A stretch of 64,000 bases of DNA from Quadrisphaera sp. (GTDB taxonomy: Bacteria; Actinomycetota; Actinomycetes; Actinomycetales; Quadrisphaeraceae), in assembly GCA_029257185.1 (NCBI GenBank), contig JARICT010000036.1, positions 1 through 64,000 of the forward strand, written 5' to 3'. The notes under the pieces are model-generated. The model did not search any database. It had not been told where the DNA came from and saw nothing but the letters and a program-made list of their open reading frames with translations. This document shows, piece by piece, positions 49,710-55,471 of the stretch (within the stretch, counting starts at the first letter, position 1; each line of letters opens with the position of its first letter). Made by a program: the position numbers and the translations under genes.

Positions 49710-50522
49710 ATGACCGAGGCAGACACGACGGCGAGCGGCGCCGACCAGCCCACCGTCCCCCTCACCGGCGGCGGCGCGATGCCGCTGATCGGCCTGGGGA
49801 CCTGGCAGGTCCAGGGGGACGACGCGCGGCGGGCCGTGGCGCACGCGCTCGAGGTGGGCTACCGCCACGTCGACACCGCCACGAGCTACGGCAACGAGGA
49901 GCAGGTGGGGGCCGCCATCGCGGGCAGCGCGCTCTCCCGCGAGCAGGTCTTCGTCACCACCAAGCTGCCCCCGGAGCGCGCCGACGACGCCCACGAGGTC
50001 CTCGCCCAGAGCCTGGAGGCCCTCGACCTGGACCACCTGGACCTGTGGCTGGTGCACGGCCCGCCGCCCGAGGGGGCGAGCCCCGCGCTGTGGACCCGCT
50101 TCCTCGAGGCCCGCTCGGAGGGGTTGGCGGCCGCGGTGGGTGTGAGCAACTACTCCCTGGACCAGATCGACGAGCTGGTCTCCGCCACCGGCCAGGCGCC
50201 GGCGGTCAACCAGGTCAAGCTCGGCCCCGCGCTGTGGGACCCCGCGCTGGTGACCGGGCACGCCGAGCGGGGCGTGGTGCTCGAGGGGTACAGCCCCTTC
50301 AAGACCACGGACATGGACGACGCCGGCCTGGTGGCGATCGCCCGCGCCCACGAGCGGACGCCGGGGCAGGTGGTGCTGCGCTGGCACGTGCAGCACGGCG
50401 TGGTGGCCATCCCGAAGTCCGTGCACGAGGACCGGATCGCCGAGAACCTCGACGTCTTCGGCTTCGCGCTCAGCGACGAGGAGATGACGACGCTGGACGG
50501 GCTCGGCCGGCCCACGGGCTGA
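49710..50522 (+). CDS. Aldo/keto reductase (diketo-gluconate reductase-like)
   Basis: 270 residues, NADPH-dependent TIM barrel. MPLIGLGTWQVQGDDARRAV, GYRHVDTATSYGNEE (catalytic Asp and Tyr), the lysine in VTTKLPPERADD, the histidine in LWLVHGPPP, GVSNYS, and the NADPH-binding IPKSVHEDRIAENL. The family reduces a broad range of aldehydes and ketones. TAGGAC lies 7 nt upstream of the ATG, an imperfect -10 box. Confidence 0.95.
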   Translation: MTEADTTASGADQPTVPLTGGGAMPLIGLGTWQVQGDDARRAVAHALEVGYRHVDTATSYGNEEQVGAAIAGSALSREQVFVTTKLPPERADDAHEVLAQSLEALDLDHLDLWLVHGPPPEGASPALWTRFLEARSEGLAAAVGVSNYSLDQIDELVSATGQAPAVNQVKLGPALWDPALVTGHAERGVVLEGYSPFKTTDMDDAGLVAIARAHERTPGQVVLRWHVQHGVVAIPKSVHEDRIAENLDVFGFALSDEEMTTLDGLGRPTG

Positions 50523-50539
50523 TCCCGGCGCGGGGGGGG

Positions 50540-51613
50540 ATGACGCGAGAGCCAAACGACCACGAAGGGCCCCCAGGGATGCGCACCAGCGATGACGGCA
50601 GCCCACCCTCCTCCGAGCCCCCGTCGACCGAGGGGAAGCCCCAGGATCCGGTCGCCGCGCTGCCGCCCGAGGTCGCGGCGTGGATCGGGGACGTCGTGGC
50701 GGAGATCGACCCGCCGCTGACCGGCGAGACCACGGCCGTGCAGCTGCTGCGCGGGGGACGCAAGGCGCTGGCGACAGTGACTCACGGCGGCGAGCTGCTG
50801 GTCCTCAAGCGATACGTCGATGACGAGGGCGCGCTGACCACCCTGTGGCTGCAGCGGCTCACCGCCGCCGGTCTCGTCGCGCCGAGCAGGTTCCTGGTGG
50901 CCCCGGCGCGGTGGTGGTCACCGCGCCACCGCACGCAGGTCATGGACCGCGCGCGCGGGTCGGCGTGGGGTGACTGGCTGACGGGGAGCGACGCGCTGAG
51001 GCAGGAGTCGTCCATCGCGGTGGCCGACTGGCTGACCGCCCTCCAGCAGCTCCCGGTGGTGCTGGAGGACCGCACGGGTCAGCGCTCCGCCTCCCGGTTG
51101 CGGAAGGAAGCGGCGTCGCTGGCGGACGCCTTCCCCGACGAACGTCACGCGCTGGCACGGATCGCCGGCGCCGCCGCTCAGCGGCTGGAGGCCGAGGCCG
51201 GCTCCCTGGTGCCCTCTCACGGGGACCTCCACCTCGACGAGCTGTTCCTCGCCCCGGGCCAGCAGCTCGTGGTGACCGGGGTCGACCTCGACACCGCGGG
51301 GCTGCGCCGGCCGTCCTCCGACGTCGGCTTCGCCCTCGCCATGCTGCTCGTCTCCTCGCGGATGCGCCACGGCTCGTTCCGGGGTGGGGCTGTCGCGGGA
51401 CGTGCCTTCTGGAAGCGCTGGGCGCCGACCGGGCAGGACCTCGAGGCGGTCCCGGCACAGATGGCCCGCTCGCTGGTGATGAGCCTGCACCTCGAGCTGG
51501 TGGCGTACCGGACCGGACGCGACGAGCTGCTCCGGCCCTGGTTGGACATCGCCGGGGCAGCGGTGTCCTCCGGCGTGGAGGCGGCTCTCTCCGTGGCAGA
51601 GGAGGTCGGTTGA
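50540..51613 (+). CDS. APH-like phosphotransferase, paralogue 1
   Basis: 357 residues of the aminoglycoside-phosphotransferase/kinase fold. ATP lysine in LLVLKRYVDDEG, catalytic loop SHGDLHLDELF (Asp in HGD), metal site VDLDTAGLRRPSSDVGFALA. The usual metal-coordinating Asn of HGDxxxxN is Glu (HLDE), which may impair catalysis. It is clearly paralogous to the gene at 54374-55471, sharing LRRPSxDVG and MRxGSF segments. Substrate unknown. The start may be ATG 50540 or ATG 50579; neither is strongly marked. Confidence 0.82.
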   Translation: MTREPNDHEGPPGMRTSDDGSPPSSEPPSTEGKPQDPVAALPPEVAAWIGDVVAEIDPPLTGETTAVQLLRGGRKALATVTHGGELLVLKRYVDDEGALTTLWLQRLTAAGLVAPSRFLVAPARWWSPRHRTQVMDRARGSAWGDWLTGSDALRQESSIAVADWLTALQQLPVVLEDRTGQRSASRLRKEAASLADAFPDERHALARIAGAAAQRLEAEAGSLVPSHGDLHLDELFLAPGQQLVVTGVDLDTAGLRRPSSDVGFALAMLLVSSRMRHGSFRGGAVAGRAFWKRWAPTGQDLEAVPAQMARSLVMSLHLELVAYRTGRDELLRPWLDIAGAAVSSGVEAALSVAEEVG

Positions 51614-51635: not shown

Positions 51636-52328
51636 TCAGGCTCCGGCCGCGGGCCGGGGCAGCGAGTGCAGCCGATACCCCATCCCGCGCAGCGTCTCGA
51701 TGCGCGAGCCGCCCATCTTGCGCCGGAGGTAGCGCACGTAGACCTCCACGACGTTGGAGCCGGGGTCGAAGTCCAGCCCCCACACCTGGCTGAGCAGCTG
51801 CTCCCGGGTGAGGACCTGGTCGACGTGGCGGAAGAAGGCCTCGGCGAGGGCGAACTCGCGAGCCGTCAGCTCGACCTCCGTCGCGCCGCCGTCGAGCAGG
51901 ACCCGGCGGGTCCGCAGGTCGAGGGTCAGGTCGCCGGCGCGCAGCATCGTCGTCTCCGGCGCCCTGCCCGGCTCCCTGATCCGCAGGCGCACCCGGGCGA
52001 GGAGCTCGTCGAAGCCGAAGGGCTTGCGGATGTAGTCGTCAGCGCCGCTCTCGAGCCCCGTGACGGTCTCCGCGACGCTGTCGCGGGCGGTCAGCACGAC
52101 GACGGGCAGGTCCACCTTCTCGGCCCGGAGCAGCCGCAGCACGGTGAGGCCGTCGGTGACCGGCAGGCCGAGGTCGAGGACCATGAGGTCGAAGGCGCCG
52201 GTGCGGGCGTACTGGTACGCGGACTCCCCGTCACCGACCACGGTCACGACGAAGCCGTTGCTGCTGAGGCCGCTCTCGAGGAAGGAGGCGATGCGGGGCT
52301 CGTCCTCGGCGACGAGGATGCGGTTCAC
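51636..52328 (-). CDS. OmpR-family response regulator of the broken two-component system
   Basis: 230 residues. Receiver: Asp in LVAEDEPRI, phospho-acceptor in LMVLDLGLPVTDG (about 53), Thr in VLTARDS, Lys in YIRKPFGF. DNA-binding domain with VELTAREFALAEAFFRH and VVEVYVRYLRRKMG. Its ATG overlaps the end of the kinase reading frame by 4 bp. The cognate kinase upstream is frameshifted, so this regulator may be unphosphorylated or use another donor. Confidence 0.93.
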   Translation of the reverse strand: MNRILVAEDEPRIASFLESGLSSNGFVVTVVGDGESAYQYARTGAFDLMVLDLGLPVTDGLTVLRLLRAEKVDLPVVVLTARDSVAETVTGLESGADDYIRKPFGFDELLARVRLRIREPGRAPETTMLRAGDLTLDLRTRRVLLDGGATEVELTAREFALAEAFFRHVDQVLTREQLLSQVWGLDFDPGSNVVEVYVRYLRRKMGGSRIETLRGMGYRLHSLPRPAAGA

Positions 52329-53882
52329 CGGCTTACCCCCTCCGGGTCGTCGGTCCCCGCGGAGGTGACGGGCGCGGAGGTGACGGGCGCAGGGTCGCCG
52401 GACGCGGCGGCGCCGTGGCCCTCGTGCGGCGCGACGGGCAGGAGCAGCGTGAACGTGGACCCCTCCCCGAGGGTGCTGTCCAGCAGGACCTGCCCGCCGT
52501 GGGCGCGGGCGATCGAGGTGACGATGGGGAGGCCGAGCCCGCCCGCGCTGCCGCGCCGGTCCCGGTCAGGGCCGTGCTCGGCGCGGGCGAAGCGGTCGAA
52601 GATGCGGGTCCGGTCCTCGGGGGCGATGCCCTCGCCGGTGTCGGCGACGCTGAGACGGAGGCGCCCGGCGACCATCGCTGCGCCGATCGAGATGCCGTCG
52701 CCGGGCCGGGTGTGGCGCACCGCGTTGGCGGCGAGCTGCATCAACGCCTGGGTGAGCCGCTGGTCGTCGGCGAGCACGGTCTGCTCGACCAGGCCCGAGA
52801 CGCTCCAGCGCCGGTCGCCCAGGGCGCTGGCCTTCGCGAGGACCTCCATCACCAGGTCGGTGACGTCGACCTCGCCGGGGCTCAGGAAGTCCGGGCGCTC
52901 AGCCTTGGCCAGCAGCATGAGGTCGTCGACCATGCGGTTCATCCGCGCCAGCTCGTCCAGCACGAGCGCGACGGTCCGCGACCGTTCGCCCGGGTCGTCG
53001 CCGAGCAGCTCGACGTGCCCGCGGATCACGGTGATCGGCGTGCGCAGCTCGTGGCTGGCGTCGTCGAGGAACTGCCGCTGGTCGGCGAAGGCGCTCTGCA
53101 GCCGGTCGAGCATCTCGTTGGGCGCTCTGCAGCCGGTCGAGCATCTCGTTGAAGGTGCGGGCGAGGGCGGCGACGTCGTCCGTGCCGGTCACGGTGATCC
53201 GCTGGTCGAGGTCGGACTCGCGGATCGCCCTGGCGGTCCGCCGCAGCGCGCGGATCGGTGCCAGGACACGGCCGGCGACCTGCCAGCTGGCCAGGCCGGC
53301 CAGGGCCAGCGCCACGAAGCTGACCGCGCCGAGCACCCTGACCGTGGCGGCGACCCGGTCCTCGCCCGGCTCGGCGAACTGGGCCACCACCAGGGCGCCG
53401 GGCTCGGGATCCCCTTCGACGCGCACGGGGAAGACCGCGTACCGGACGTCGCCGGCGTCGCTGTCCACCGTCCCGGTCTCGGGCTGGCGCACCCCGGCGA
53501 CGCGCGAGGCGAACTGCGGGTCGGTGTCGAGGCGGACCAGCGGCTCGGTGCGGGCCCGGCGGTCGGGACGGCCGTCCACGAGGCTGAAGAACGTCTCGTC
53601 GGCGTCCGGCACGATGACCGCGAGGTAGCTGGCCAGCAACGTGCTGACATCGGTGTACGGCCGGCCGGTGGCTGGGTCCACAGCGCGTGCGGCGTAGTCG
53701 CGCAGCTTGTCGCCCTCGTGGGCGAGCTCCTGCTCTAGCTCGGCTCCCGCCCGCTCGCTGAGCACCCGGGCGGCGATCACCAGCTCGGCGACCAGCGCGA
53801 TCGCGACCACCAGCATCATCCAGCCGATGATCCGGCTGCGTGCGCTCAGCCCTCCCGCACCGGGAGCCAGGCTCCTCCGCAC
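52325..53882 (-). pseudogene. Sensor histidine kinase split by a 31-bp tandem duplication
   Basis: The 5' part (53882 to about 53090) encodes a first helix (about 20-42), an extracytoplasmic sensor domain, a second helix (about 178-200) and HAMP up to ARTFNEMLDRLQSA. The frame then continues in nonsense ARD..RPAAERLRRP. The 3' part, beginning again at MLDRLQSAFADQ in another frame, has HisKA DASHELRTPITVIRG and HATPase motifs MQLAANAVRHT, VADTGEGIAPED and GSAGGLGLPIV. A perfect 31-bp duplication at 53090-53151 shifts the frame by one. Removing one copy restores a kinase of about 508 residues, so the break is recent, phase-variable or a sequencing error. Confidence 0.9.
53090..53151. repeat. 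Perfect 31-bp tandem duplication causing the frameshift
   Basis: Bases 53090-53120 and 53121-53151 are identical. The unit covers codons NEMLDRLQSA at the HAMP/HisKA junction. Since 31 is not a multiple of 3, the reading frame is broken exactly here. Confidence 0.95.
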
Positions 53883-53888
53883 GTCGGC

Positions 53889-54233
53889 TCAACCGTCCGT
53901 GTCGTCGTCGTCGGCGTCGTCGGCGTCGTCGTCGGCGTCGGAAGTGCCGTCGTCGTCGTCATCGTCATCACCTGCCGGGGGCGCCGGCACCACGGGCACC
54001 TTGGTCGCCCCCGTCGGCCCGGCCGGCTGCGCCGACGGCGCGGTGGGCTGCGCCGACGGCGCGGTGGGCGTCGTGGGCGCGGACGTCGCTGGCGGCTCAG
54101 CGGCGGGATCGACGACGACCACGCCGCCCACGTCCGCCGGAGGTGAGTCCAGCACCGCGCCGCCCACGACCCACGCGAGGGCGAGGCACAGCACCGGGGC
54201 GCCCAGCAGCGCGGCCAGCCGGCGACGCGACAC
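53889..54233 (-). CDS. Small membrane-anchored Asp-rich protein
   Basis: 114 residues from GTG 54233, set by GGGGGAGGGGG upstream. Basic start and one helix (about 6-24, LLGAPVLCLALAWVVGGAV), a Pro/Thr/Ala linker with two copies of PTAPSAQ, and an acidic tail of about 30 residues, mostly Asp (GDDDDDDDGTSDADDD). The tail suits cation binding outside the membrane. It is the first gene of the unit with the kinase and regulator (6 bp to the kinase), so it could be an accessory or a signal-sensing component. No named family recognised. Confidence 0.72.
   Translation of the reverse strand: MSRRRLAALLGAPVLCLALAWVVGGAVLDSPPADVGGVVVVDPAAEPPATSAPTTPTAPSAQPTAPSAQPAGPTGATKVPVVPAPPAGDDDDDDDGTSDADDDADDADDDDTDG
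54028..54069 (-). repeat. 21-bp in-frame tandem duplication
   Basis: Two identical 21-bp units encoding PTAPSAQ repeats in the Asp-rich protein gene. In frame, so only linker length changes. Confidence 0.85.
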
Positions 54234-54277
54234 GTGATCCCCCTCCCCCGACCTGCAGCACTCGGCCGAGGGCTGGA

Positions 54278-54291
54278 TGAGAAGGCTCTCA
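54278..54291. promoter_or_regulatory. Palindrome in the divergent promoter region
   Basis: TGAGA-AGGC-TCTCA, perfect 5-bp arms, between the divergent Asp-rich protein/kinase/regulator unit and the phosphotransferase operon. A candidate site for the response regulator; also related to the CTCTCAG element before HtrA. Confidence 0.4.
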
Positions 54292-54373
54292 GGCACGACC
54301 AACGCCTGTGCCATCCGGGGCCCACATCCTGATGAGTGACCCAGCGCGCACCGACCGTAGGAGCCAGCAGGAC

Positions 54374-55471
54374 ATGACGGCACACCCCCAGCCCCGACCG
54401 GGAGCCTGGTCGCTGCTGACCCGCGGTCCGGCCTCACCGGACGTGGACGCGCTGCCCCTCGCCGGAGCGCCGACCCCCGACACCACCCGGTGGGTGCGCG
54501 CCGTCCTGGCCGACACCGTCCCGGCGATGGCCGCGGTCTCCGGTCGCCTCGTCGCGCTGCGCGAGGGGCGCAAGCGGCTGGCCGTGCTCCACCCCGACGA
54601 CGGCCCGTCGCTGGTGCTCAAGCAGTACTCCGACGATCGCGGGGCGTGGACCCAGCGGTGGATGCAGCGGCTGGCCGAGGCCGGCATGGCGCCGCCGGCC
54701 CGCCTCTCGGTGACACCGGCGCGGGGATGGTCGCCCGCGCACAAGACCCTGGTGGCCGACCTGGCGCTGGGCGCCGAGTGGTCCGGCTCGCTGCAGGCCC
54801 CGGCGGCCGAGCGCGACGCGGCGGCGGTCGCCGCCGCGGACTGGCTGGTCGAGCTGGCAGCGCTGCCGGTGACCCTGCCGGACCGCACCGGCTACCGCGC
54901 CGGCGAGGACCTGCGCCGCCACAGCGGCGAGCTCGCCGACGAGCACCCGACGCGCGCCACCCGGCTGCTGGGTGTCTCTGGGACGGCCCAGTCGCGGCTC
55001 TACGGCGACCCGCGGGCGGGCGCCGACGACCTGGTCGCCTCCCACGGTGACCTGCACCCGGCGAACCTGTTCGTGGCGAGCGGCGGGCCCCTCGCGGTGA
55101 CCGCCATCGACGTCGACACCGCGGGGCTGCGCCGGCCCTCCTACGACGTCGGCTACGCCCTGGCCCAGCTGCTGGTCGCCTCCTGGATGCGCACCGGCTC
55201 CTTCGCGGCCGGGGCGAGCGCCGGCGCGGCCTTCTGGCAGCGGTGGAGCGCCCACGACGGCCGCGACGCCGACGCGGTGCCCGCGCAGGTGGTCCGCGCG
55301 CTGGTGCAGAGCCTGCACTTCGAGCTGGTCGTCTACCGCAACGGCCGCACCGACCTGCTGGAGCCGTGGCTGGCCGTCGCCGAGACCGTCCTCGCCGACG
55401 GCGTGCCCGCCACCCTCCACGCCCTCACCACCTCCCACCCCCTCACCACCGCCGAGGAGCCCACGCCGTGA
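54374..55471 (+). CDS. APH-like phosphotransferase, paralogue 2
   Basis: 365 residues. ATP lysine in LVLKQYSDDRG, catalytic loop SHGDLHPANLF with Asp and the metal-binding Asn both present, and metal site IDVDTAGLRRPSYDVGYAL. Paralogous to 50540-51613 but with an intact active site. It starts the operon with a GH57 enzyme and an ABC exporter and overlaps the GH57 start by 4 bp, suggesting that it phosphorylates a sugar or sugar-derived compound (inferred). ATG 54374 is chosen for AGGAGCCAGCAGGAC upstream; earlier in-frame starts at 54308 and 54332 exist. Confidence 0.87.
   Translation: MTAHPQPRPGAWSLLTRGPASPDVDALPLAGAPTPDTTRWVRAVLADTVPAMAAVSGRLVALREGRKRLAVLHPDDGPSLVLKQYSDDRGAWTQRWMQRLAEAGMAPPARLSVTPARGWSPAHKTLVADLALGAEWSGSLQAPAAERDAAAVAAADWLVELAALPVTLPDRTGYRAGEDLRRHSGELADEHPTRATRLLGVSGTAQSRLYGDPRAGADDLVASHGDLHPANLFVASGGPLAVTAIDVDTAGLRRPSYDVGYALAQLLVASWMRTGSFAAGASAGAAFWQRWSAHDGRDADAVPAQVVRALVQSLHFELVVYRNGRTDLLEPWLAVAETVLADGVPATLHALTTSHPLTTAEEPTP

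Follow-up and report, generated by a model that had tools for sequence, protein, structure and literature searches.

A 31-bp tandem duplication splits a sensor kinase gene over two reading frames in a Quadrisphaera draft genome

In the draft genome of Quadrisphaera sp. (assembly GCA_029257185.1), the gene of a sensor kinase changes reading frame at a short repeat, which raises the question of whether this gene was broken by a recent mutation, is switched on and off reversibly, or was put together wrongly in the assembly. We analyzed the gene and its surroundings in a stretch of 64,000 nucleotides of contig JARICT010000036.1 (the window). Tandem Repeats Finder reported a repeat at 53090-53151 with a period of 31, 2.0 copies and a 100% match. 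An independent exact scan found that the run of matching bases is exactly 31 long, that no flanking bases are shared, and that no other perfect pair in the window has units of 22 bp or longer; about 2e-11 such pairs are expected per 64 kb from base composition alone, a figure that codon repetition raises. The copy number of a 31-bp unit (3n+1) alters the reading frame. Furthermore, a codon-usage decoder that was trained on the window's own genome and was blind to the repeat placed a frame switch at 53117/53119, stop-free within 60 bases, and flagged no further switch in the window.

Features of the kinase-regulator locus (window positions)
Feature	Position	Strand	Evidence
Upstream frame, 327 aa, sensor + HAMP	52899..53882	-	ORF + Pfam search
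Downstream frame, 262 aa, HisKA + HATPase_c	52325..53113	-	ORF + Pfam search
31-bp unit that is transcribed first, within the upstream frame	53121..53151	-	Repeat scans
Second 31-bp unit, identical to the first; contains the ATG (53113) of the downstream frame	53090..53120	-	Repeat scans
OmpR-type response regulator, open frame	51636..52328	-	Pfam: Response_reg + Trans_reg_C
APH gene	54308-55471	+	Pfam
APH gene	within 50045-51613	+	Pfam

The three kinase domains all scored above their Pfam cut-offs, with HAMP at residues 202-252 of the upstream frame, and HisKA at residues 12-73 and HATPase_c at residues 116-228 of the downstream frame. No stop was found in either half of the kinase, and the upstream frame consists of about 254 residues in the ancestral frame followed by about 73 that are out of frame. 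Thus, the single continuous kinase frame of OmpR-type systems is interrupted here, the frame changing at the 31-bp repeat. In the adjoining regulator gene both Response_reg and Trans_reg_C were above the Pfam cut-off. None of the listed matches to curated NCBIfam models (12 of 12 for the first kinase half, 25 of 74 for the second) reached its cut-off, the best scoring 160.8 bits against a required 334.2; the halves were scanned separately, which depresses such scores. The kinase-regulator pair is flanked by two phosphotransferase-family (Pfam APH) genes on the opposite strand. The kinase is immediately preceded by a 182-aa open frame on its own strand (53889-54437, minus) with an Asp-rich C-terminal end, for which no Pfam match was obtained. 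No second copy of the kinase locus turned up in the assembly, where the best remaining DNA match was 81% over 72 bases.

We compared the gene with 104 related loci, not all of them independent: the best 80 of at least 270 from named genomes, 3 matches at the DNA level and 21 others. Both kinase halves were present within 400 bases of each other in 66 of these, and in all 66 they shared one common frame, so that an out-of-frame junction was seen in none (0/66). The 38 loci in which an adjacent pair was not found probably have a sensor part that is too different or are too short. When all 104 loci were scanned for exact tandem repeats, no 31-bp unit was listed. The common frame in 66 of 66 loci indicates that the continuous kinase is most likely the ancestral form. 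The sequence-only reading had described a perfect 3n+1 duplication at the HAMP/HisKA junction, with a normal kinase half on either side in a different frame, and both parts of this description were borne out by the repeat scans, the Pfam searches and the relatives.

The closest relative among the best 80 of at least 270 listed was Geodermatophilus sp. DF01-2 (locus L036), with 79% protein identity in each half and a kinase encoded in a single open frame of 497 codons from stop to stop. Its DNA is about 80% identical over 2.3 kb, and the neighboring phosphotransferase-family gene matches too; both APH genes of the window match one and the same stretch of L036, beside its kinase. Locus L241, from a genome of the same order and another family (G118), was 70-71% identical in the halves and has a frame of 506 codons. 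Positions 51664-53986 of the window matched G118 at 74% and Geodermatophilus DF01-2 at 79-80% of the DNA. From the one further congeneric genome (G001, 76% complete) came only short matches and no orthologue. Likewise, the 12 other genomes of the family yielded no close orthologue: their longest DNA matches covered about 630 of 1558 bases at 69% (G010) and about 440 of 1558 bases at 72% (G003), with protein identities of 40% and 39%, respectively, to the sensor part of the window's kinase, as befits relatives that are not close orthologues. At E <= 1e-100, a DNA search returned G118 and the window's own genome among 396 genomes of the order, and two others among 394 genomes of the class. The locus may have been acquired horizontally or lost in relatives.

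The age of the duplication was assessed from the conservation of the two halves. Against L036, pN/pS was 0.32 for the N-terminal half and 0.43 for the C-terminal half; against L241 it was 0.36 for both, and these values indicate relaxed selection in neither half. Together with the identity of the two units, this conservation argues that the duplication is either recent or not real, in line with the claim of the sequence-only reading that it marks a recent event or an error. As for its origin, the best candidate for slippage between short direct repeats was a 5-base repeat at a spacing of 33 rather than 31, and 13% of 20,000 random 31-bp stretches did as well or better (P ~0.13). With no matching flanking bases and no significant flanking repeat, the usual footprint of slippage is missing, which counts against an ordinary duplication. 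The absence of shared flanking bases is not unusual among the listed duplications of this genome, as it was seen in three of 20: the one at the kinase and two others, with units of 16 bp (in L130) and 18 bp (in L132). A DNA hairpin as the cause was also rejected, since 154 of 200 shuffled versions of the region folded as well as or better than the original (z 0.75). Elsewhere on the same contig, an apparently intergenic stretch (L157:9640-10140; contig C62, ~79.6-80.1 kb) contains a perfect tandem duplication of 41 bp, together with several copies, direct as well as inverted, of a CGACCGGGGACCTCCCACC-like motif; three of its core 12-mers occur 7, 8 and 10 times in the sampled genome, four of each there.

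We consider it about an even chance (probability ~0.5) that the locus records a recent, ordinary mutation, in which a 31-bp tandem duplication caused loss of function of the kinase or split it. Such a duplication, arising in an OmpR-family sensor kinase gene, would shift the reading frame at the end of the HAMP domain, and the main product would be a membrane-bound sensor that keeps HAMP, ends in a nonsense tail and lacks the catalytic core. The early stop would also be expected to lower translation of the regulator, whose start lies inside the kinase stop: the two share 4 bases (GTGA), with GTG as the start codon, and L036 and L241 show this arrangement too. The stop at 52899 lies about 570 bases before the regulator start, and a ribosome leaving there, that far short of it, suggests that regulator translation may fall. 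The duplication, the two frames, the continuous homologues and the overlap are seen directly in the sequences, whereas the presence of the duplication in cells, the loss of signaling and the polar effect on the regulator are inferred. The regulator had been called intact, which is true of its sequence, with an open frame and both domains, but leaves aside that its start overlaps the kinase stop, so that its translation may be reduced by the frameshift. Inactivation of the kinase had likewise been put too strongly, because translation from the in-frame ATG at 53113 could in principle yield a soluble HisKA-HATPase fragment. This ATG is the first ATG, GTG or TTG in the downstream frame, and both catalytic domains behind it are complete, as would suit a working kinase made as two proteins, one with the sensor and HAMP and the other with HisKA and HATPase. 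However, no good ribosome-binding site was seen by eye before the ATG, the upstream frame runs about 215 bases past it, and none of the 66 related loci is split at the junction; we regard a working split kinase as very improbable.

We also considered that the second unit is a single local error of assembly or consensus, in which case the kinase would be intact in the cells, with one unit only. With 178 contigs, a completeness of 90.5% and 3.4% contamination, the genome is a draft in which one such error would look the same as a true duplication; both halves look fully conserved, as in a working gene, and a run of exactly 31 bases with unshared flanks is what the joint of two overlapping pieces would probably give. 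To place the repeat among others, we searched 1.34 Mb of unmasked sequence, a non-random 44% of the genome made up of contig 62 (the window and the remainder) and the initial 20 kb each of contigs 1-60, contigs 63-79 and 20 more contigs, some of which had been picked through earlier matches; the stretches L136, L150 and L161, masked as N throughout, were excluded from the frame count and added nothing to the repeat count. This sample held 29 perfect tandem duplications with units of at least 16 bp: 19 of 18 bp, two each of 16, 21 and 30 bp, and one each of 17, 24, 31 and 41 bp. Five of the 29 have units that are not a multiple of three, and comparison of the lists showed that the 31-bp one alone coincides with a flagged frame switch. 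Four single-contig relatives used as controls (0.40 Mb) held five duplications, with units of 18, 18, 18, 19 and 114 bp. A join error at a fixed overlap should recur, whereas within this 44% sample the 31-bp unit is a single case and no length but 18 bp occurs more than twice; a systematic k-mer artefact is therefore unsupported. A single local error is another matter. Frame switches without a nearby stop numbered 19 in 1.35 Mb of this genome, whereas the controls had 2 in 0.40 Mb, both of them from G013; the draft may therefore be a little less accurate than the finished genomes, leaving room for a single error. Against an error, 5 of these 19 switches are found on the same strand within 6 kb of one other contig (C6; L121, 13777-19655), a sign of pseudogenes or poor consensus there, and the switch at the kinase is the only one flagged in the window. 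In addition, a 62-bp array would fit inside a single short read. On balance, we hold a single local error to be possible rather than probable; of the artefact that the sequence-only reading had proposed, the systematic form was not found in the 44% sample, and the isolated form may apply. Contamination as the source of contig 62 was unsupported too, as GC content and tetranucleotide profile of the window fall within the range of 59 further stretches, each 10 kb or longer, a weak test given that related high-GC genomes can look alike.

Finally, gain and loss of one unit could toggle the kinase in a subpopulation of cells. Identical adjacent units can in principle recombine or slip back, and the mechanism has a precedent in pneumococcal capsule genes, going by the titles of Waite et al. 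(2001, 2003) and an excerpt of PMC4022640. Against such a switch, there are two copies only and no longer array, the unit shares no flanking bases, the DNA folds in an ordinary way, and neither the repeat nor another unstable tract, whose retention would support a switch indirectly, is kept at the site across relatives, in which the junction was out of frame in none of 66 loci and the 31-bp unit was listed in none of 104. We therefore consider a reversible switch improbable, and slightly more so in its full form, in which gain and loss of a single non-repetitive unit would turn the kinase off in part of the population of a high-GC bacterium and lower the regulator through its overlapping start. 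Altogether, the observation behind the sequence-only reading was confirmed and its interpretation upheld in part, whereas its on/off contingency switch met with no positive evidence.

At present, the locus stands as a lone mutation or a lone error in a single draft genome. A real allele would provide a clean and recent case of a signaling system broken by a small and in principle reversible duplication, with the kinase perhaps also decoupled from its regulator. The pneumococcal capsule duplications of Waite et al. reportedly undergo precise reversion. By its domains, the locus is close to OmpR/PhoR-type sensor kinases (heavy-metal CzcS/SilS/CopS-like and PhoR-like), with which it shares HAMP, HisKA and HATPase_c as well as a partner gene with Response_reg and Trans_reg_C whose start overlaps the kinase stop. 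Among the titles and abstract openings listed as matches to a limited set of terms in one literature collection, none named a frameshifted sensor kinase of this kind. A phase-variable change reported in an excerpt of PMC13410964 lies in a single-base repeat, unlike the 31-bp unit here. The nearest parallel is provided by the pneumococcal capsule genes (type 3 locus, cap8E and tts), in which, according to the same titles and excerpt (Waite et al., 2001, 2003; PMC4022640), spontaneous duplications are tied to phase variation. Common to both is a tandem duplication inside an open reading frame that abolishes, or here would abolish, the product. However, as far as that excerpt goes, the pneumococcal cases are tied to switching in culture and hit a capsule enzyme, whereas here one allele of one genome is at hand and the target is a regulator gene; if switching were proven, this would be a regulator gene to set beside the phase-variable genes already known to work by duplication of a whole unit.
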